Below are positions 4,871 through 14,493 of a DNA stretch of 64,000 nt, one piece after another (positions within the stretch are counted from its first letter, which is position 1; each line of letters starts with the position of its first letter). The stretch is from the NCBI RefSeq assembly GCF_000426705.1, contig NZ_KE384554.1:636714-700713 (forward strand), in the 5' to 3' direction. Made by a program: the position numbers and the translations under genes. Source of the stretch: Spirochaeta cellobiosiphila DSM 17781. GTDB taxonomy: Bacteria; Spirochaetota; Spirochaetia; DSM-17781. The notes under the pieces are model-generated. The model searched no databases and was not told the DNA's origin. It saw nothing but the letters and a program-made list of their open reading frames with translations.

Positions 4871-4897
4871 GGTTACCCGACTGGGTAACCTTTTTTT
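4871..4897 (+). terminator. Rho-independent terminator of groES
   Basis: Stem GGTTACCC / GGGTAACC with a 4-nt loop (4871-4890) followed by seven T (4891-4897). The T tract overlaps the stop codon of the convergent helicase gene. Confidence 0.95.
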
Positions 4898-7328
4898 ATG
4901 AATACAGAAAATCTTCAAGCTTATCCATCAAAAGCTTAGTAGGGATTATTTGCTGTTGAGTTTCAGGAAGGGATCCTAAAAACAGAGGACCATATTTTTT
5001 GGTTATAATTCTATTATCCAGGATCATTACAGAACCAAAATCACTTGTCTGCCTCATCAGGCGACCAAAGCCTTGTTTAAACTTCATAACAGCTTCTGGT
5101 AAACTTAGTTCCATAAAAGCATTCCCCCCTCTAGCTTCTATGGCCTGGATTCTAGCCTTTGTTATGGGCTCAGAAGGAACTCTAAAGGGAAGTTTAGTAA
5201 TAATGACTAATTTCAATGATTCACCGGGAACATCAACACCTTCCCAAAAAGAATCAGTTGCAAATAGTACACTTTTAGTTTCACGTTTAAAATTCTCAAG
5301 CAAACGGCTTCGATCATCTTCCCCCTGGCGATAAACGGGAATCCCTTCGTCTTCCAAATAGGGACGTAGCCTATCATATACTTGAATCAGTAAACGATAA
5401 CTAGTAAATAAGATGAGACCACTACCTTCTGAGATACGCAAACTCTTCAGGCAGAAACGGGATACATATAATTCAAATTCTTCTTGATCTGGTCCAGGAG
5501 AATCTGTGGGAATGCCTAATAAAACACGGTTCTTATAATCGAAGGGACTTGGATATTGTTCACACACAGCAGAGTCTGGCAAACCCAGTAAACCTATCCG
5601 TGATTGCCAATAGGTAAAGCTATTACGAATGGACAGAGTGGCAGAGGTAAAAACAACAGAATCAAATGGTTCTAGCAAAGCTTCTTTCATTAGATATCCG
5701 ACCTCTAAAGGGCTTTTGACAAAACGGTAAAAGGGTTCAGATTTGGAATTCATTTTCCTTTCCATCCAGAACACAGATTGTTGCTTTTCCTGATATTCAC
5801 CAAATTGACCGGCTAGAGAGGCTACGGACTCAAGGCGCCTTAAAAGATTCCTAAACTCTTGTGCTTTGGCATCTTCCTGTCCTTCCTCAGGCAGGGATTC
5901 AAAGAATTGTAATCCATGATTAACAAACGACATAATACGGCTTCTCAACTCACTCAGATCGTTAAGAAACCCCAATAGCTCATGCCTTTCCACTTGTGGA
6001 GATAAGTATAATTGGTTCTCCTTAAGATTATTACCTAAATTAGTATCCAAATCATTAAGGATCTCATCAATACCTATTCTATCATCAAGAATCAGCTTAG
6101 CTATCTCTGGATCAGCATTCTTCTTTTGTAAGTCAATGAGGAGGCCAAAAGATTTATTTCTTTTTAACCTATAGATTCTATTGATATGCTTCTGAATAGT
6201 ATATCTTGTAAAACTTTCCGAAAAATAACTTGTGGCCGCCCCCTCTATATTATGAGCTTCATCTATAATAATCCTCTCAAAAGGAGGTAAGACAGCAGTG
6301 TTTTCAAAACCAGCCCCACTGACCCTCAAGGAAAGATCAGAAAAAAGAAGATGATGATTCACAATCAGAATCTGTGCACTGGCGGCTTCTTTCTTTGCTC
6401 TCGCGACAAAACATCCTTCCCTTTGGGAACATTTCATCCCGATACAGGTATCAGGGTCAGAATTAATACGACTCCAGATGTCATCACTAGGCAAAAAAGA
6501 AAGGTCTGAGATAGTGCCTGTTTTTGTAGTCTTGGCCCATTCTTTTAAATATTCTATGGTGTCATCTTCTTCCTGGAATAATTCTTCTTTTAATTCTTGT
6601 GAATATTCCTGTAATCGATAGGGACATAAATAATTCCGCCGCCCTTTCACTAGGACAACTTTAATATCCCCCAGTATTTTTTGAAGAATAGGTATGTCTT
6701 TATCTAGTAACTGTTGTTGTAAATTGATCGTCCCTGTAGAAATAACGATTCGTTGTTTATTTTTCTGAGCCCATAACACAGCGGGTAGTAAATAAGCAAA
6801 GGATTTTCCAACACCTGTACCTGCTTCCCCTGCAAAAATACCATCGTTATTAAAAGTATCTGTTATCCTTTTAGATAATTCTATTTGACTTTCTCTTGGC
6901 TCATATTGACTTACTTGTTTGGATAAAGCTCCTCCTATTGTAAAAAAGGCTTCAATATCCTCCCTATCTATAGGCAATATTTCTTCTTGAGCCAATGGTT
7001 CAGCTACAATATAGATTTGAGATAAATCATTATCAACAATGGCAAAACCTATGCCCTGATTCCCTAATTTTGAGGCCACATTAATGTCTGCCTCTGAAGG
7101 ACGAAGAATACCTGAAGGATGATTGTGAATGATCAAATCCCCCTTCTCCATATAGGGAAAGAGTGCTGGCACAGCACTCTCATTTCCCATAGCCACAGCA
7201 TTGATGGAATCAATCATTTGTGTTTTATCCATATGACCTATCCATAGAACTTCCTGGCCACTGGATTCGACAAGGTCCAGAGACATTCTTTCAAGTACTT
7301 CCAATCGAATCCTTTTTGTTATTCTCAT
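4896..7328 (-). CDS. dinG: JAMM/RadC-like domain fused to a DinG-type (XPD family) DNA helicase
   Basis: 810 residues. Residues 1-125 form a JAB/MPN domain with a complete JAMM metal site: Glu26, HxH at 68/70 in HNHPSG, Ser78 and Asp81, with the exact H-x7-S-x2-D spacing. The rest is a superfamily 2 helicase: Walker A GEAGTGVGKS (168-176), four cysteines expected to ligate a 4Fe-4S cluster (LCPY, then TCIGMKC and GCF), the DEAH box IIDEAHNIE, and C-terminal motifs including QGFGRLMR. DinG unwinds 5'-3' and resolves R-loops and G-quadruplexes. Firmicute DinG proteins have an N-terminal exonuclease here instead. The gene follows punA by 7 bp and is probably cotranscribed. Confidence 0.9.
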   Translation of the reverse strand: MRITKRIRLEVLERMSLDLVESSGQEVLWIGHMDKTQMIDSINAVAMGNESAVPALFPYMEKGDLIIHNHPSGILRPSEADINVASKLGNQGIGFAIVDNDLSQIYIVAEPLAQEEILPIDREDIEAFFTIGGALSKQVSQYEPRESQIELSKRITDTFNNDGIFAGEAGTGVGKSFAYLLPAVLWAQKNKQRIVISTGTINLQQQLLDKDIPILQKILGDIKVVLVKGRRNYLCPYRLQEYSQELKEELFQEEDDTIEYLKEWAKTTKTGTISDLSFLPSDDIWSRINSDPDTCIGMKCSQREGCFVARAKKEAASAQILIVNHHLLFSDLSLRVSGAGFENTAVLPPFERIIIDEAHNIEGAATSYFSESFTRYTIQKHINRIYRLKRNKSFGLLIDLQKKNADPEIAKLILDDRIGIDEILNDLDTNLGNNLKENQLYLSPQVERHELLGFLNDLSELRSRIMSFVNHGLQFFESLPEEGQEDAKAQEFRNLLRRLESVASLAGQFGEYQEKQQSVFWMERKMNSKSEPFYRFVKSPLEVGYLMKEALLEPFDSVVFTSATLSIRNSFTYWQSRIGLLGLPDSAVCEQYPSPFDYKNRVLLGIPTDSPGPDQEEFELYVSRFCLKSLRISEGSGLILFTSYRLLIQVYDRLRPYLEDEGIPVYRQGEDDRSRLLENFKRETKSVLFATDSFWEGVDVPGESLKLVIITKLPFRVPSEPITKARIQAIEARGGNAFMELSLPEAVMKFKQGFGRLMRQTSDFGSVMILDNRIITKKYGPLFLGSLPETQQQIIPTKLLMDKLEDFLYS

Positions 7329-7335
7329 TCAGTGA

Positions 7336-8154
7336 TCAGCTCCAATATTCAATTAAACCGCTAACTAATCCTATCATATCTTTTTCAACAAGTTTACTGG
7401 TTTCGATAACTTCCTTGTGATCTAGTTTTGCATGTCCCAATCCAGCAGCCAGATTTGTTACACAACTAATACCACAGACTTTCATACCTAGATAGTTGGC
7501 AACAATACATTCAGGAACAGTAGACATACCTACTAGATCTCCCCCAAAAGCTCTGACCATTCGAATTTCTGCAGGAGTTTCATAAGAAGGGCCTGTAAAA
7601 CCGGCATATACTCCATATTTCATAGTCCTATGGGGAAGCACTTTTCTAGCTATCCTACTAGCTTCATCAAGCATTTCTTTGTTATAAGGTTCAGACATGT
7701 CAGGGAATCGAGGCCCCATACTATCGTTGTTAGGTCCAATCAATGGATTCGTCCCTTGTAGGTTGACCTGGTCGATAATAAAAGCTAAATCACCAGGTTC
7801 AAATGTATAATTTACCCCACCAGCTGCATTGGTTAATAAGACCTTTTCAACCCCTAGTTCTTTCATCAATGTAATAGGCATAACCACATCATCCATTTTA
7901 TACCCCTCATAGAAATGAAAACGGCCAGCAAAAACAATAATGTTATCAGCAATTTTGAGACTGCCCTTGTGACCGTGTACGGTACTAACGGGAAAACCTT
8001 CAATATCTTTATATGATATCTCTGTTCCTTCTATGGAATCCACAATGCCAGATAATCCACTACCAAGAATAACTCCCAGTTTAGGTGTACTCTTCGATTT
8101 GGCTCTAATTGAAGCTACCGCTTTGTCTATCCGAACTTTAAATCCTGCTTCCAC
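7336..8154 (-). CDS. punA: Purine nucleoside phosphorylase (trimeric, inosine/guanosine type)
   Basis: 272 residues. Cleaves purine nucleosides with phosphate to free base and (deoxy)ribose-1-phosphate in purine salvage. Family signatures: GVILGSGLSG phosphate loop, STVHGHKG, AGRFHFYEGY, LTNAAGGVN, the FTGPSYETPAEIRM base-binding segment, GMSTVPE and CVTNLAAGL. These belong to the PNP/MTAP (trimeric) family and not to DeoD. The start is GTG, with AGGAGG seven nt upstream. It is divergent from aspartokinase and leads a two-gene unit with the helicase fusion. Confidence 0.95.
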   Translation of the reverse strand: MEAGFKVRIDKAVASIRAKSKSTPKLGVILGSGLSGIVDSIEGTEISYKDIEGFPVSTVHGHKGSLKIADNIIVFAGRFHFYEGYKMDDVVMPITLMKELGVEKVLLTNAAGGVNYTFEPGDLAFIIDQVNLQGTNPLIGPNNDSMGPRFPDMSEPYNKEMLDEASRIARKVLPHRTMKYGVYAGFTGPSYETPAEIRMVRAFGGDLVGMSTVPECIVANYLGMKVCGISCVTNLAAGLGHAKLDHKEVIETSKLVEKDMIGLVSGLIEYWS

Positions 8155-8269: not shown

Positions 8270-9613
8270 ATGATCGTACTCAAATTTGGCGGTACAAGTG
8301 TACAAAGCAGTGATTGGATGGATAAATCCCTACAAATCGCCATTGATCAGCTTCATCGAAGTCCATTAATTGTATCATCAGCCATGGCAACAGTAACTAA
8401 TGGTTTAGTTTCCATATCAGAATTAACTGGCAAAGGTCAATATTCTGAAGCAATGAGTGAGTTAGATAGAATAAAAGAACTTCACTTTACAACTGCAAAC
8501 GCTTTTTTAACAAGTACCAACCTTGAGAATACTATTGATGAACTTAACACCCTATTTATATCCTTATCTTCATTAATTAAGGGATTATGTTTGTTACAGG
8601 AATGTAGCCCCACTTCTAATGCGGCATTATTATCCTATGGGGAACTGTTGTCGACAAAGCTTTTATCAGGAAGACTTACTGAAAAAGGAATACCCAATAC
8701 ATGGATAGACGCCAGACAGGTTATTGTCACCAATGAAGAATATGACTCAGCAGTACCTGATTTTAACTTAACAGGACAAAAAGTCATAAATAACATAAGA
8801 CCTAATCCTAATCACATTTATGTTACCCAGGGCTTTATAGGGGCCACCACTAAAGGGGTCACTACTGTTCTTGGACGTGGGGGATCTGATTATTCTGCTA
8901 CAATATTTGGAAGCTTATTGAATGTAGAGGAAGTCCAAATCTGGACTGATGTTACTGGTATTATGACAACAGATCCCCGCTTAGTACCCAATGCCATGAC
9001 CATAGATTCCATTTCCTATGAAGAAGCAGCAGAAATGGCCTATTTTGGTGCGAAGGTAGTTCATCCCTCAACAATCCAGCCAGCAGTAGATAAACGAATA
9101 CCTGTATGGGTGAAAAACACGAGGGAACCATCAGCTCCGGGAACAAAGATTTCCTTTCAAGCCCAGGGTGAGGGAATACGGGCAATTACAGGAAAGAAGA
9201 ACATAACCTTAATTAATATATCCTCTACCAGAATGTTAAATGCCTATGGCTTTCTAGCGAAAATTTTCCAGATATTTGAAAAATACTCCACTTCTGTTGA
9301 TTTAATTGCAACCAGTGAAGTATCAGTGTCCATGACCATTGAAGATAAAACCCATCTTCATGAAATCATTGATGAGATAAATGTATTTGCCAATGCTGTC
9401 TATGAGAACGATCAGGCTATAATCTGTCTGGTGGGCAAAAAATTATGGATGGATTCCAATTTTATTTCTAAGGTATTCTCTTTACTTTCAGAAACCCCCA
9501 TACGCATGGTATCTTTAGGATCAAGTGATATAAACTTGAGTTTAGTCGTATCAGAACAGCATAGGGAGACCACCATAAAAGTCCTTCATAATGAGTTATT
9601 CCATGGAAACTAA
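8270..9613 (+). CDS. lysC: Aspartate kinase (monofunctional)
   Basis: 447 residues. Phosphorylates aspartate, the first step toward threonine, methionine and (where made) lysine/diaminopimelate. The N-terminal KFGGTSVQSS motif, the VLGRGGSDYSATIFG nucleotide/substrate loop and the DPRLVPNAMTIDSISYEEAAEMAYFGAKVVHP segment are diagnostic. The C-terminal about 130 residues form the regulatory ACT pair (INISSTRMLNAYGFLAKIF; IRMVSLGSSDINLSLVV). There is no fused homoserine dehydrogenase. The lysC versus thrA-type symbol cannot be settled from sequence alone. Its end overlaps the next gene by 23 bp, so translation is probably coupled. Confidence 0.92.
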   Translation: MIVLKFGGTSVQSSDWMDKSLQIAIDQLHRSPLIVSSAMATVTNGLVSISELTGKGQYSEAMSELDRIKELHFTTANAFLTSTNLENTIDELNTLFISLSSLIKGLCLLQECSPTSNAALLSYGELLSTKLLSGRLTEKGIPNTWIDARQVIVTNEEYDSAVPDFNLTGQKVINNIRPNPNHIYVTQGFIGATTKGVTTVLGRGGSDYSATIFGSLLNVEEVQIWTDVTGIMTTDPRLVPNAMTIDSISYEEAAEMAYFGAKVVHPSTIQPAVDKRIPVWVKNTREPSAPGTKISFQAQGEGIRAITGKKNITLINISSTRMLNAYGFLAKIFQIFEKYSTSVDLIATSEVSVSMTIEDKTHLHEIIDEINVFANAVYENDQAIICLVGKKLWMDSNFISKVFSLLSETPIRMVSLGSSDINLSLVVSEQHRETTIKVLHNELFHGN

Positions 9614-10457
9614 CTATAATATAGATATAATCAAAATGCGCTTAAGCCACAAAGATTATATCCTCATTGATCAAAAGAAAAATAACCTGGACAGGAACAT
9701 TATCTTTCAAAAAGCCCAACTCATATGTCATAGAAAAAAAGGAATGGGAGCGCTTGGAATACTTTTGATAGAGTATAAGGATCACACTCCTTTCGTTACA
9801 CTTATTGATAAGAAAGGTAATCCCAGTAATGATGTAGATGCCTATCTTTGTGCAGCAAGATATCTTTTCGAAAAGGGATCCTATGGAGAGGAGTCTTTTC
9901 ATTTACAGACACCAAAGAACAAACTCGACATAACACACATAGAATTAGGTACTTACCTGCTTGATTTAGGGAGGGTATCAGCTCAAAAACAGGAGCTGAA
10001 TAAACCTATACAAAGCGATCTGGCAAATATCAAAGTTAAGAATAAACATGAGACCCAATATATGTCCGACTTAACTCTAAACAACAAACAAAGCTATGTA
10101 CATATTGCAACAACAACTCGAAAAAAGAAAGAGGAAGCAAACTTTTACACTACCTATAGAGGATTTATTCCTGCTAATGTAGAACTCCTAAGAGTTTACC
10201 CACAGAGTAATGATGAGTTTTTACTATCCATGGAAGATAGAAAGGGAAGTCTAATTGAGTCAGTAGCAAAAGGGGCCATTGCTCTAACCTTAAATGGGTT
10301 CGGTCAGGATCAAATGATTACAAACATCAATACTACTGAATTTTATATCAATTGGGCCTATACTGTTGGTGTAGCCTCAAAACCTGAATACATCTTAAGT
10401 GGAAGATTCACTTTTGATTTTGAAAACAGTGATAAAAATGCAGGAGATCTTTATTAA
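9591..10457 (+). CDS. Diaminopimelate-epimerase-fold protein lacking both catalytic cysteines
   Basis: 288 residues. The N-terminal half follows DapF closely: KMRLSHKDYILID (DapF KMHGLGNDFxxxD), RKKGMGALGILLIE (DapF DRxxGxGxDGxLxxE) and DKKGNPSNDVDAYLCAARYL (DapF DGSE...CGNGxRCxARY). The second half has FIPANVELLRVYP (NVEFV) and MEDRKGSLIESVAKGAIALTLNG against DapF ERGxGETxACGTGACAA. The first catalytic Cys (CGNG) is lost and the second is Val, so racemase/epimerase activity of the known type is not expected. It lies directly after aspartokinase. Role unknown; possibly a structural or regulatory relic. Another in-frame ATG lies at 9603; neither start has a strong ribosome site. Confidence 0.7.
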   Translation: MSYSMETNYNIDIIKMRLSHKDYILIDQKKNNLDRNIIFQKAQLICHRKKGMGALGILLIEYKDHTPFVTLIDKKGNPSNDVDAYLCAARYLFEKGSYGEESFHLQTPKNKLDITHIELGTYLLDLGRVSAQKQELNKPIQSDLANIKVKNKHETQYMSDLTLNNKQSYVHIATTTRKKKEEANFYTTYRGFIPANVELLRVYPQSNDEFLLSMEDRKGSLIESVAKGAIALTLNGFGQDQMITNINTTEFYINWAYTVGVASKPEYILSGRFTFDFENSDKNAGDLY

Positions 10458-10876
10458 TGGATCCGATATTTAGACGATTAAGTACTTTATTTAAAAGCTA
10501 TTTACAGAATGAATCAGATAACACAAACTATTCTCAATCTTATTTTGACAACGAAGAACAAGAGGCCTGGGAGGAACTTGAAGAGTTCTTAAAAACAGGT
10601 CAGACAAAAAGTTCAACTCATTATCAAGATCATCGACAAAAACAAGACCAAAACATGAGCCAGGAAGAAATACTGTTACAAAAAGCATACATGGTATTAG
10701 GTTTAAAATCTGAGGCAACTTTTGAAGAAATAAAACAGCGTCATAAGGAGCTTTTATTAAAAAACCATCCTGATAAACATACAGATAGTGATTTTTCACA
10801 AAAAACAGCTACAGAGAAAACACAAGCTATAAACGAAGCTTTTCAGCTGATTAAAAAGAAGAAGAAATACAGATAA
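10457..10876 (+). CDS. Small J-domain protein (DnaJ-like co-chaperone)
   Basis: 139 residues. The C-terminal 65 residues are a J domain: helix I (ILLQKAYMVLGL), helix II (TFEEIKQRHKELLLK), the HPD motif in NHPDKH, and helix III (TEKTQAINEAFQLI). J domains stimulate the ATPase of a DnaK/Hsp70 partner. The N-terminal half is acidic and probably disordered, with no Gly/Phe or zinc region, so this is a class C J protein. It shares one base with the gene upstream (TAATG). The Hsp70 partner and client are unknown. Confidence 0.85.
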   Translation: MDPIFRRLSTLFKSYLQNESDNTNYSQSYFDNEEQEAWEELEEFLKTGQTKSSTHYQDHRQKQDQNMSQEEILLQKAYMVLGLKSEATFEEIKQRHKELLLKNHPDKHTDSDFSQKTATEKTQAINEAFQLIKKKKKYR

Positions 10877-10886
10877 GGACTATAGA

Positions 10887-11954
10887 GTGATATTAAAAGT
10901 TATTTTATTAATAGGGTTATCTTTTTTGCTTAACCTCATATTTACACCTGTAATAATAAAATTATCTCATCGTAATTCCTGGTTTGATCATATAGATCAG
11001 AGAAAGATTCATGACGGACAAATTTCCCGATTAGGGGGAATAGGAATATATGTTTCTTTCTTTCTAGTTATGGTTGTTGGAGTCATCTTATACTTCCCAG
11101 AGGTAAAGAATAATATTCTTAGCTATATATTACTAATAGCAGGATTAACAACAATGAATATTGTAGGAACCATTGATGATTTTCATACCATAAGAGCCGT
11201 ATATAAACTGGGAGGACAGATTCTAGCGGGAATACTCATTATTTCCGGCGGGTTTAGTATCCAAACAATTGAATTTCCCTTTTCCTCACTTTCTATTAAT
11301 CTCGGTTACATTGGGCCAATATTAACATTATTTTGGTTAGTAGCACTTTCTAATGCTATTAATTTAATGGATGGATTAGATGGTTTGGCAGGAGGAATAT
11401 CTTTATGGGCAGCTTTGGGAATGGGTTTATTAGGCATTATGACAAATTCAGAATCTGTACAGTTATTGTCTTTTCCTCTAGTAGGTTCTTTATTGGCCTT
11501 CCTTGTTTTTAATCTTCCTTTTCCTAAAGCTAAAATCTTTATGGGAGACTCTGGGGCTCTAACCATTGGATTTATAATTGCTACTCTGCCATTGCTATTC
11601 ACACCGGGAAGAACCACGACTTTAAACTTGTTTGTACCAAGCTCGCTACTTATTCTCCCCATATTAGACACATTTGCTGCTATTATAAGAAGATTAAGAA
11701 ATAAACAACCTATCCACCAACCAGATAGAGCTCACTTGCACCACAAGTTGCTGGATTTAGGATTTAATAATAAACAAATCCTATTAATAGTTTACTTATT
11801 TAGCTTTGTTGGAATACTAATGACCCTCTCCTGGTCTAAATTTGGTCATTACGTCGGTATACTATTAATATTTGGATTTTGGATAGTGGGAATTCTCTTT
11901 TTTACTATAATTCACTTTGCCAATAAAAGACTTCAAAAAGAAAGCCCTAACTAA
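10887..11954 (+). CDS. Undecaprenyl-phosphate sugar-1-phosphate transferase (WecA/TagO type)
   Basis: 355 residues, about ten to eleven membrane segments. This family moves a HexNAc-1-phosphate from UDP-sugar to a polyprenyl phosphate and so starts cell-surface polysaccharide synthesis. Visible signatures: IDQRKIHDGQISRLGGIGIY, the GTIDDFHTI Asp pair, NLMDGLDGLAGG, the KIFMGDSGA segment, and AHLHHKLLDLGF, which replaces MraY features and marks the WecA/TagO branch. The start is GTG, with AAGGA seven nt upstream. It ends the aspartokinase-led run and overlaps the convergent NtrC-type gene by 4 bp. Whether the sugar is GlcNAc is inferred only. Confidence 0.88.
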   Translation: MILKVILLIGLSFLLNLIFTPVIIKLSHRNSWFDHIDQRKIHDGQISRLGGIGIYVSFFLVMVVGVILYFPEVKNNILSYILLIAGLTTMNIVGTIDDFHTIRAVYKLGGQILAGILIISGGFSIQTIEFPFSSLSINLGYIGPILTLFWLVALSNAINLMDGLDGLAGGISLWAALGMGLLGIMTNSESVQLLSFPLVGSLLAFLVFNLPFPKAKIFMGDSGALTIGFIIATLPLLFTPGRTTTLNLFVPSSLLILPILDTFAAIIRRLRNKQPIHQPDRAHLHHKLLDLGFNNKQILLIVYLFSFVGILMTLSWSKFGHYVGILLIFGFWIVGILFFTIIHFANKRLQKESPN

Positions 11955-13327
11955 GCATGCTTGGAAAACTCTTCTTCCAGATTATATTCATGTAATTTGC
12001 GATGAAGAGTTTTTCGACCAATACCAAGGATTTCAGCAGTTTTGCTTTTATTCCCTTTATAGTGGATGAGAGTGTTTCTAATCACTTCCTTTTCCGCCTC
12101 AGCCATAGTACTACCAATCGTCAGTTTGATCATTTGCCCTTCCTCATTATTTCTTATATGGGGAGGTAGATCATCAACAGTAATGACAGGACCTTTGGAC
12201 ATAACAACCGCACTTTCAATACAATTACGCAATTCTCTAATGTTACCTGGCCAGGAATAATTATTGAGGGCCATTCTGGCTTTGACATCCAAACCATGTA
12301 TAACTTTTCCATTCTCCTCTGCCATTTCAACAAGGAAAGTCGAATACAATAAAGGAATATCTTCTTTTCTTTCTCTTAATGGGGGAATATGAATGTTAAC
12401 AATATTAAGACGGTAATACAAATCTTCCCGGAAATTCCCCTTCTCTACTTCTTTTATCAAATCTCTATTAGTGGCCGCTACAATGCGAACATCAACGTCT
12501 AAAGTATCTTCTCCACCGACTCGTTCAAATTGCTTCTCCTGAAGAACTCTCAATAACTTTATTTGAACGCTCTGGTTGATTTCCCCGATTTCATCAAGGA
12601 ATATGGTCCCCTTATGAGCTAACTCGAACCGTCCCTTCTTACGACCGACAGCCCCGGTGAAAGCGCCCTTCTCATGTCCAAATAGTTCTGACTCCAAAAG
12701 GCTTTCACTTAGGGCCGCACAATGGGTTTTTATAAGAGAACCCTCAGTGCGGTTAGATTGTCTATGGATAGCTTCAGCAACAAGCTCTTTACCAACACCA
12801 CTCTCTCCAGTGATAAGTACAGATGCTTTTGTAGGGGCCACCTGGTTTATCAATTCAAAAATAGCCTGCATTTGGGAGGACTTCCCAATCATCTTGTTAA
12901 ACTGTCTACGTTTTTCAATCTTTTCAACTTCTTCCTTCAGCATCTCGTGCTGGCGGATAAGCTCTCTGTTAGATAAAGCACGTTTCACTAATAGACCCAA
13001 ATGGTCAAGGTTCACCGGTTTGGTTAAAAAGTCATAAGCACCATCTCGCATGGCATTAACGGCGTTCTCCACAGTACCATGTCCTGTAAGAACAATAACA
13101 GGGATAGTAGGAAAGGAGGAACTGATATACTTTAATAATTCTTCCCCTGACAACTTGGGCATCTTCAAATCGGTGATAATCAAATCGATGAGCTCATGTT
13201 TGAGTTTTTCCTGAGCATCTTGTCCATTTTCAGCCAGAACAATATTATATCCATCCATTTCAAGGGCGCTACCCAACCCTTGTCGAATATTCTTTTCATC
13301 ATCCACTACCATAATAGTAAAGGTCAT
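11951..13327 (-). CDS. NtrC-family sigma-54 activator (Rrp2-like response regulator)
   Basis: 458 residues from the ATG at 13327; this ATG overlaps the kinase stop (ATGA), so the longer TTG-started frame is rejected. Receiver with D9/D10 and phosphoacceptor Asp53 (IITDLKMP). The AAA+ domain has Walker A GESGVGKE, an intact GAFTGA loop (EKGAFTGAVGRKKGRFELA) and Walker B (GTIFLDEIGEI). A Fis-type HTH ends it (NKSKTAEILGIGRKTLHRKL). GAFTGA contacts sigma-54, so this regulator opens -24/-12 promoters. With the adjacent PAS kinase and murG/cvpA it resembles the Borrelia hk2-rrp2 locus. Its likely target in this window is the sigma factor gene at 2706-3566. Confidence 0.93.
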   Translation of the reverse strand: MTFTIMVVDDEKNIRQGLGSALEMDGYNIVLAENGQDAQEKLKHELIDLIITDLKMPKLSGEELLKYISSSFPTIPVIVLTGHGTVENAVNAMRDGAYDFLTKPVNLDHLGLLVKRALSNRELIRQHEMLKEEVEKIEKRRQFNKMIGKSSQMQAIFELINQVAPTKASVLITGESGVGKELVAEAIHRQSNRTEGSLIKTHCAALSESLLESELFGHEKGAFTGAVGRKKGRFELAHKGTIFLDEIGEINQSVQIKLLRVLQEKQFERVGGEDTLDVDVRIVAATNRDLIKEVEKGNFREDLYYRLNIVNIHIPPLRERKEDIPLLYSTFLVEMAEENGKVIHGLDVKARMALNNYSWPGNIRELRNCIESAVVMSKGPVITVDDLPPHIRNNEEGQMIKLTIGSTMAEAEKEVIRNTLIHYKGNKSKTAEILGIGRKTLHRKLHEYNLEEEFSKHA

Positions 13328-14493
13328 GGTTCTACTCCCTCCCACATAATCAGGTGCTTTTCTTTCTGAGGAATAGGAAAGGTGAAACAAAATTTAGTCC
13401 CTACCCCTTCATCCGAGTCTACTTGAATCTCGCCACCATGTTCCTTGATGATCTTGTAGACCAAGGTTAATCCCAATCCACTTCCAGAATCTTTTGTTGT
13501 AAAATAGGGTTCAAAGATCTTATCCCTTATGTCTTTCGGAATACCAATTCCTGTATCCTGTATCTCTAAATGAACTTCATTCTCCTTGGAATAGGTGCGA
13601 ACCTTCAAAGTTCCCCCCCCTTCCATGGCATGAATAGCATTTTTTACAATGTTTAAAATGGCTTGTTTAATAAAACGTTCATCCATGTCAATCTGGGGAA
13701 GCTTTTCATCAAGATTCGTGACCATCTGAACATCTGACTGATCCATTTCAAAATGGAGGAAGTCCAACAGATCCACAACCACCTTATTCAAGTCCCCTTT
13801 AAGCATACTAGTATCCATTGGTCGAACAGCGAAAAGAAAATCAACAACAATACCATTGAGCCTTTCCACCTCTTCTGCAATAACATCCAAGAATTTCTCT
13901 ATCCGGGGATAATCAAAATCCCCGCAGTTCTGATTCTTAAAGGATTTTTGTATCAATTGTAAATGAATACCAATACTACCGAGAGGATTTTTGATTTCAT
14001 GGGCCACACCAGCAGCGAGAGTCGTCAGAGAAGCAAGGTTTTCAGCTCGTCTAAATCGAGCTTCCCTGTTCTTTTTATCGGTGATGTCCTCGATCTGAAA
14101 TAAACTCCCCCTGATCTTGCCCTTTTGAACTAAAGGAAGAAGGGCCATAGAATAGATACGGAAAGAACCTCGAAAATCAAGACTCATCTCGTGATCTTCA
14201 AAATTAAGCTGTTTTTCCAGGCTTTCCCGGAGTAATTGGGATATATCAGAATCACTAACAGCTTCCCACAACAATGTACCTTCATGGGGACGTTTGTTCA
14301 TAATAACATGACTGGGACGATTGCAGAACAAAATACGATGGGATTCATCGGTCACCACAACACCATGGGTCATGGAGCCTAAAACCATCTCAAATAATTC
14401 GTTTTCCTTAACCACCTCACCTAAAAGATTCTTAATCTGATTAGGTTCTAGTTTAGGTAACTTATCTAATGCTTTCTTTACGAATTTACTCAC
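13324..14493 (-). CDS. NtrB-like PAS sensor histidine kinase (Hk2-like)
   Basis: 389 residues, no membrane span, so a cytosolic kinase. A PAS domain (about 35-145) starts at NELFEMVLGSMTHGVVVTDESHRILFCN. HisKA carries the phosphorylated His in AAGVAHEIKNPLGSI, and HATPase_c has the N box ILNIVKNAIHAM and G boxes DTGIGIP and GSGLGLTLVYKII. It overlaps the regulator gene by 4 bp and lies 8 bp after holB. It should phosphorylate Asp53 of the adjacent sigma-54 activator. The ligand sensed by PAS cannot be read from the sequence. Confidence 0.92.
   Translation of the reverse strand: MSKFVKKALDKLPKLEPNQIKNLLGEVVKENELFEMVLGSMTHGVVVTDESHRILFCNRPSHVIMNKRPHEGTLLWEAVSDSDISQLLRESLEKQLNFEDHEMSLDFRGSFRIYSMALLPLVQKGKIRGSLFQIEDITDKKNREARFRRAENLASLTTLAAGVAHEIKNPLGSIGIHLQLIQKSFKNQNCGDFDYPRIEKFLDVIAEEVERLNGIVVDFLFAVRPMDTSMLKGDLNKVVVDLLDFLHFEMDQSDVQMVTNLDEKLPQIDMDERFIKQAILNIVKNAIHAMEGGGTLKVRTYSKENEVHLEIQDTGIGIPKDIRDKIFEPYFTTKDSGSGLGLTLVYKIIKEHGGEIQVDSDEGVGTKFCFTFPIPQKEKHLIMWEGVEP

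Follow-up and report, generated by a model that had tools for sequence, protein, structure and literature searches.

The closest described relative of the protein considered here is diaminopimelate (DAP) epimerase, DapF (PF01678, TIGR00652), whose catalytic pair is Cys73/Cys217. The spirochaete protein, which we term psi-DapF, resembles it in a predicted two-domain fold (clear in one relative, and confident in the window protein for its N-terminal half), in the F-x-K and G-x-G motifs of the N-terminal domain, in a C-terminal SG motif and in its ancestral site, but lacks the catalytic cysteines, leaves the Asn/His/Glu substrate positions free to vary and falls below both profile cut-offs. Cys-less members of the DapF fold are already known, PhzF among them; PhzF is catalytic, however, whereas the psi-DapF family has no conserved polar set across the cleft. 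A further precedent is the action of E. coli DapF on the RNA pyrophosphohydrolase RppH, a role without need of catalysis, in that the C73A/C217A protein binds and activates RppH whilst devoid of epimerase activity (PMC4227774); the E. coli protein is nevertheless still an active enzyme, and the 60 spirochaete genomes searched contain no RppH over cut-off. Finally, the intact spirochaete DapF proteins of family-level groups f39 and f10 share the locus and neighbours of psi-DapF and are among its nearest intact relatives in the tree, yet theirs carry the full catalytic and substrate set, with lysA and dapL adjoining.

The window (by which we mean the whole 64,000-nucleotide stretch of DNA analysed) contains an uninterrupted open reading frame on the forward strand (9591-10457; 288 aa, without internal stop), which a first-pass annotation had taken for a DapF-fold protein that had lost its catalytic cysteines and was coupled to aspartokinase. 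We think it reasonably probable that a true DapF gave rise, at this very site, to a pseudoenzyme that has been kept for a non-catalytic role exercised through its N-terminal domain, with a candidate partner in the aspartate, diamino-acid or wall-precursor route.

A DapF homologue without its catalytic cysteines

The ATG at 9603 fits the starts of homologues better than the listed start, which probably lies 12 bases too early; psi-DapF is best placed at 9603..10457 (+), giving 284 aa. The reported overlap with the upstream aspartokinase gene, lysC, is real, but with the preferred start its length becomes 11 bp rather than 23 bp; the reading frame also shares one base with the downstream DnaJ-domain gene. 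Third-position GC (0.31) is like that of the neighbouring genes and gives no hint of a recent foreign origin.

Both curated DapF profiles score the window protein below their cut-offs (PF01678, 24.4 bits against 34.7; TIGR00652, 23 bits against 114.65), the matches being weak and mainly to the N-terminal half. In a leave-one-out test, a profile of 21 spirochaete homologues that excludes the window protein matches residues 6-275 of its 9603 form at 117.6 bits (E 3.4e-33 at Z=100,000), whereas 200 shuffled controls score 5.0 bits at most. By this computation the ORF is a full-length DapF homologue, and the DapF ancestry first proposed for it is borne out.

The only cysteines of the protein, residues 46 and 87, both sit at non-catalytic positions. 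In an alignment with 18 intact DapF sequences, that of E. coli among them, the codon at the Cys73 position (9834..9836, +; residue 82 of the 288-aa form, in SNDVDAY) now specifies Val, and the Cys217 region (LIESV, 10251..10265, +; in the context GSLIESVAK) has no Cys nearby, the aligned residue being Leu or Val depending on gap placement; the loss of both cysteines thus stands, whilst the earlier assignment of Val at the second site is not firm. The loss exceeds the cysteines alone, since the alignment gives further pocket substitutions (N11K, N64D, N75D, H159Q, N190E and E208D), with Asn157 and Arg209 the only residues retained at the pocket positions other than the catalytic pair. Substrate-binding positions 11/64/157/190/208/209 accordingly read K/D/N/E/D/R, four of the six being changed, and the Glu208-Arg209 position aligns to an Asp-Arg pair at 10236..10241 (+).

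Querying 59 further Spirochaetia genomes with the protein itself found homologues in 21, mostly whole-length and at 22-28% identity, and a profile search found matches in 118 of 395 Spirochaetia genomes, true DapF among them; with the gene missing from most of those sampled, its role must be dispensable in the class. Across GTDB contigs, a pattern derived from the single protein recovered no relative, and one derived from a four-sequence alignment recovered 11 Spirochaetia relatives, 18 intact-type DapF from other phyla and one more Cys-less protein (L235). In an alignment of 75 sequences, E. coli DapF included, 51, drawn from 18 family-level groups of Spirochaetia, combine a degraded pocket with the absence of the cysteines; the rest comprise 18 intact proteins, two with both cysteines but without Glu208-Arg209, and four that keep the pocket without one or both cysteines. 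Some Cys-less groups, f22 for example, have a cysteine within one residue of position 217 by alignment, and the pair is retained in none. The window protein belongs with this family on its profile match, its lack of the Cys pair and its position between dinG and ntrC; we found no description of such a family in the open-access literature searched.

A home locus descended from a lysine operon

The locus is anchored on the left by a DinG-like helicase gene (4896..7328, -; PF13307) and on the right by a gene for an NtrC-like sigma-54 response regulator (11951..13390, -; PF00158, PF00072). Between these lie a purine nucleoside phosphorylase-like gene (7336..8154, -; PF01048), which is a frequent neighbour; lysC (8270..9613, +), encoding a lysine-sensitive-type aspartokinase with ACT domains (NF006570, 465.8 bits against a cut-off of 455); psi-DapF itself; the DnaJ-domain gene (10457..10876, +; PF00226), again frequent at the home locus; and a family 4 glycosyl transferase gene of WecA/MraY-like type (10887..11954, +; PF00953), conserved in some loci. 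The genome has three aspartokinase genes (C1:379461, C3:35809 and C24:644980), one of which adjoins the psi-DapF ORF.

In groups f39 (L170, L207, L208, L209) and f10 (L108, L183) the same site holds asd-lysC-lysA-dapF-dapL-dnaJ-wecA, the names resting on resemblance to reference genes (in L108 the listed order of dapL and dapF is swapped); this operon adjoins dinG, and also ntrC where the stretch reaches that far, and its DapF has every catalytic and substrate residue. Group f37 retains dapL at the locus beside a DapF without the Cys pair, group f32 retains both cysteines but has lost the Glu-Arg pair, and most other loci are reduced to asd and/or lysC, the DapF relic and the DnaJ gene, the window being among such remnants. 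One genomic site documents the passage from enzyme to pseudoenzyme with unusual completeness, through an intact operon, Cys-bearing intermediates without Glu-Arg, and Cys-less proteins under selection. It also follows from the presence of a lysine operon with intact DapF at the home site that the lysC overlap is an inherited remnant.

This bears directly on the proposal that the protein is a dedicated aspartokinase partner, binding LysC and modulating feedback in the aspartate pathway. The overlap in the window speaks for it, as does the finding of lysC directly upstream, sometimes with asd, in roughly 17 of the 43 or so Cys-less loci whose context can be read (a count from the locus table); but the adjacency predates the loss of catalysis, dating from asd-lysC-lysA-dapF-dapL, and lysC does not adjoin the relic in the majority of these loci, so that a consistent association is wanting. 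In two genomes (G022, G043) lysC sits beside dinG elsewhere and the DapF-like gene is still beside ntrC; in four loci (L129, L131, L132, L136) the DnaJ gene comes after lysC with nothing DapF-like in between. We consequently regard a dedicated aspartokinase partnership as unlikely, and the specific coupling originally read from the overlap is unsupported.

Neighbours of the relic vary by lineage. In the Treponema-like group f24 it lies within a mur operon, murE-ddl-relic-murD in L188, L189 and L193 and murE-relic in L190, the mur gene families having been confirmed on L188 and the other three loci grouped with it by sequence similarity. Groups f36 and f45 have a GH3 hydrolase and a redox gene close by in some loci, and no aspartate or mur gene nearby.

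Domain asymmetry and the predicted fold

Conservation within the Cys-less family is markedly uneven, with a mean pairwise identity of 33% in the N-terminal domain against 22% in the C-terminal domain, compared with 42% and 45% in intact DapF, and the contrast persists when pocket columns are removed and in pairs matched for N-terminal identity below 50%. Positions 73, 74, 157, 159, 190, 208 and 217, fixed or nearly so in intact DapF, are free in the Cys-less family, and the positions released in this way are mostly catalytic or pocket residues. What the family keeps lies mostly in the N-terminal domain (9615..9962, + in the window, identified by the conservation contrast and by an AF2 block with pLDDT mostly 80-95) and in a C-terminal strand segment with an invariant Tyr and the SG motif (10377..10412, +), which matches DapF residues 263-274. 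In DapF, this strand segment belongs structurally to the N-terminal domain. The C-terminal domain proper retains a few structural glycines, some alanines and one tryptophan, with no conserved polar pocket residue in that half; a ligand-binding role exercised through the old pocket, one of the functions first suggested, is thereby weakened.

Structure prediction gives a similar picture. The model of L211, a typical member, has a pLDDT of 88.9, a DapF fold and a TM-score of 0.84 to 2otn. For the window protein (pLDDT 72.6) the best solved-structure matches are likewise DapF, with the N-terminal half confidently predicted and the C-terminal half poorly so, residues 137-193 falling below 50. The expected double domain is hence evident in the relative, and secure in the window for its N-terminal half; taken together with the loss of the Cys pair and pocket, the L211 model supports the idea of a fold kept after catalysis was lost.

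Could the protein still be an isomerase or lyase, using other acid-base residues in the manner of PhzF? Cys-less catalysts such as PhzF do appear among the fold matches, and two acidic residues are common in the family, Asp12 in 44 of 51 sequences and an Asp at position 75 in 34 of 51. Catalysis in the DapF fold takes place between the domains, however, and the C-terminal half offers no conserved polar residue for it; the Asp at position 75 may, moreover, be a helix cap. We consider this reading decidedly unlikely.

E. coli DapF has a second function, in which it activates an RNA pyrophosphohydrolase. Such a role would require neither the catalytic cysteines nor the dimer (PMC4227774; PMC7144940), and would in that respect suit a protein such as psi-DapF. 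No RppH-family protein exceeds its cut-off in the 60 genomes searched, the genome of the window included, the best Nudix match scoring 36.5 bits against a required 116, and we judge this role improbable.

Among the residues that the family does conserve are position 36, Arg in 47 of 51 sequences, and position 268, Phe or Tyr in 48 of 51, the window protein being an exception with Leu at the latter. Mutating either position breaks the dimer of E. coli DapF (PMC7144940), and with both dimer-critical positions among the conserved residues of the N-terminal domain, dimerisation of psi-DapF is probable.

Lysine synthesis, selection and a proposed model

The peptidoglycan of Spirochaetales is described as containing L-ornithine (PMC3726837), an order description rather than a measurement on this strain, from which an ornithine-type wall is to be expected here, as the first-pass annotation anticipated; with ornithine in the wall, DAP would serve lysine only. 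Its further suggestion, that such a wall would release DapF from duty, does not hold on the wall alone, because the genome retains DAP-route lysine genes, with no recognisable epimerase. In this genome dapB adjoins dapA (the latter named by inspection), and a separate cluster holds a dapD-like gene, an aminotransferase gene, lysA and dapE; DAP-route genes (dapB, lysA-like) were recorded at C24:233793-235016 and C25:11578-12168. The genome search found no other dapF, and a second weak DapF match (C27) proved PhzF-like on inspection. Ddh as a bypass of the epimerase was rejected, with no match over cut-off in 60 genomes, this one included. An additional epimerase resembling alanine racemase, of the DapF2 type, has been proposed for Staphylococcus (PMC9026213); none is obvious here, where we find one full Alr-like match, one short match (a 230-aa frame) and LysA. 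As a marker of wall type the MurE motif was of no use: almost every sequence in which it could be located reads (D/N)EDPR, irrespective of whether DapF is intact.

Most sampled Spirochaetia share this pattern of dapB and a LysA-like enzyme without DapF or Ddh, such that either LysA accepts LL-DAP or the epimerase has escaped recognition. It is tempting to cast the relic itself as the missing DAP epimerase, acting in an unrecognised way, given that dapB, dapA, dapD-like, dapE and lysA are all present here whilst DapF and Ddh are both missing; yet two genomes (G003, G007) combine dapB and a LysA-like enzyme with a complete lack of DapF-like genes, and a third (G042) has an intact DapF alongside the Cys-less relic, which argues that the relic is not a general substitute epimerase and makes this highly improbable.

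The Cys-less genes are functional and under purifying selection: where dN/dS is defined, close Cys-less pairs give 0.04-0.35 and intact pairs 0.05-0.20, the low ends being similar, so retention of the fold under selection holds up. Decay into pseudogenes, for which the missing catalytic residues and the outright gene loss in several lineages might be cited, is barely credible and for the family already contradicted by full-length frames in 18 family-level groups, by dN/dS well below 0.4 and by a mean N-terminal identity of 33% at great distance. The window protein has the longest branch of the tree (2.43); the branch bounding the degenerate group is weak (61/21), and catalysis may have been lost once or several times. 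Trees that unite intact DapF with the Treponema-like sequences are rejected (AU p 0.0085).

Returning to the reading that we prefer, a pseudoenzyme kept for a non-catalytic role, we propose the following model. An ancestral spirochaete operon, asd-lysC-lysA-dapF-dapL, would have stood between dinG and ntrC, and lysA and dapL would have been lost from the site in most lineages. The on-site DapF lost its Glu-Arg pair and catalytic cysteines, probably ahead of the rest of the pocket, whilst the protein was retained for a task that would not need catalysis. We suggest that it probably functions as a dimer, by way of the N-terminal domain, with a C-terminal domain that is only loosely constrained. 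Its most likely task would be to bind and tune, or stabilise, an enzyme from one of three routes (aspartate, diamino-acid or peptidoglycan-precursor); candidate partners would be, at the home locus, aspartokinase or Asd and, in the mur operon of the Treponema-like group, MurE, Ddl or MurD. Ancestry, the conserved locus, the degraded pocket, purifying selection, the asymmetry of the domains and the mur-operon context are computed results, whilst the sequence in which residues were lost, the dimer, the binding of a protein and the partner itself are inferred.

More tentatively, and at somewhat less than even chances, we speculate that Spirochaetia harbour a conserved pseudoenzyme family in which an epimerase of the lysine pathway now serves, without catalysis, as a partner of enzymes for peptidoglycan precursors or the aspartate pathway, in bacteria whose lysine synthesis has no recognisable DAP epimerase; if true, this would imply a decarboxylase that uses LL-DAP, or an unknown epimerase. 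The record at this site opens two questions to testing, namely the non-catalytic roles of DapF, and the synthesis of lysine in spirochaetes without DapF or Ddh.

A practical consequence concerns annotation: within Spirochaetia, the label ‘diaminopimelate epimerase’ cannot safely be relied on. In one genome (G053; L002/L219), the protein of group f32 scores above the TIGR00652 cut-off with both cysteines kept, although Glu208-Arg209 and Asn190 are lost, and its automatic annotation as DapF is doubtful. Separately, a stand-alone DapF in another genome (L046, G020) has serine in place of both catalytic cysteines and an otherwise intact pocket.

We also observed a DapF domain at the C-terminus of the carbamoyl-phosphate synthase large subunit in the Treponema-like groups f24 and f42 (L197, L198, L201 and L247-L266; frames of 1309-1459 aa), a fusion on which no paper was found in the open-access literature searched. 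In each of the 23 fusions read, position 73 is substituted (Ala in 22, Gly in one), whilst Cys217, Glu208, Arg209 and the greater part of the pocket remain; the fused domain is possibly a ligand-sensing or single-base domain.
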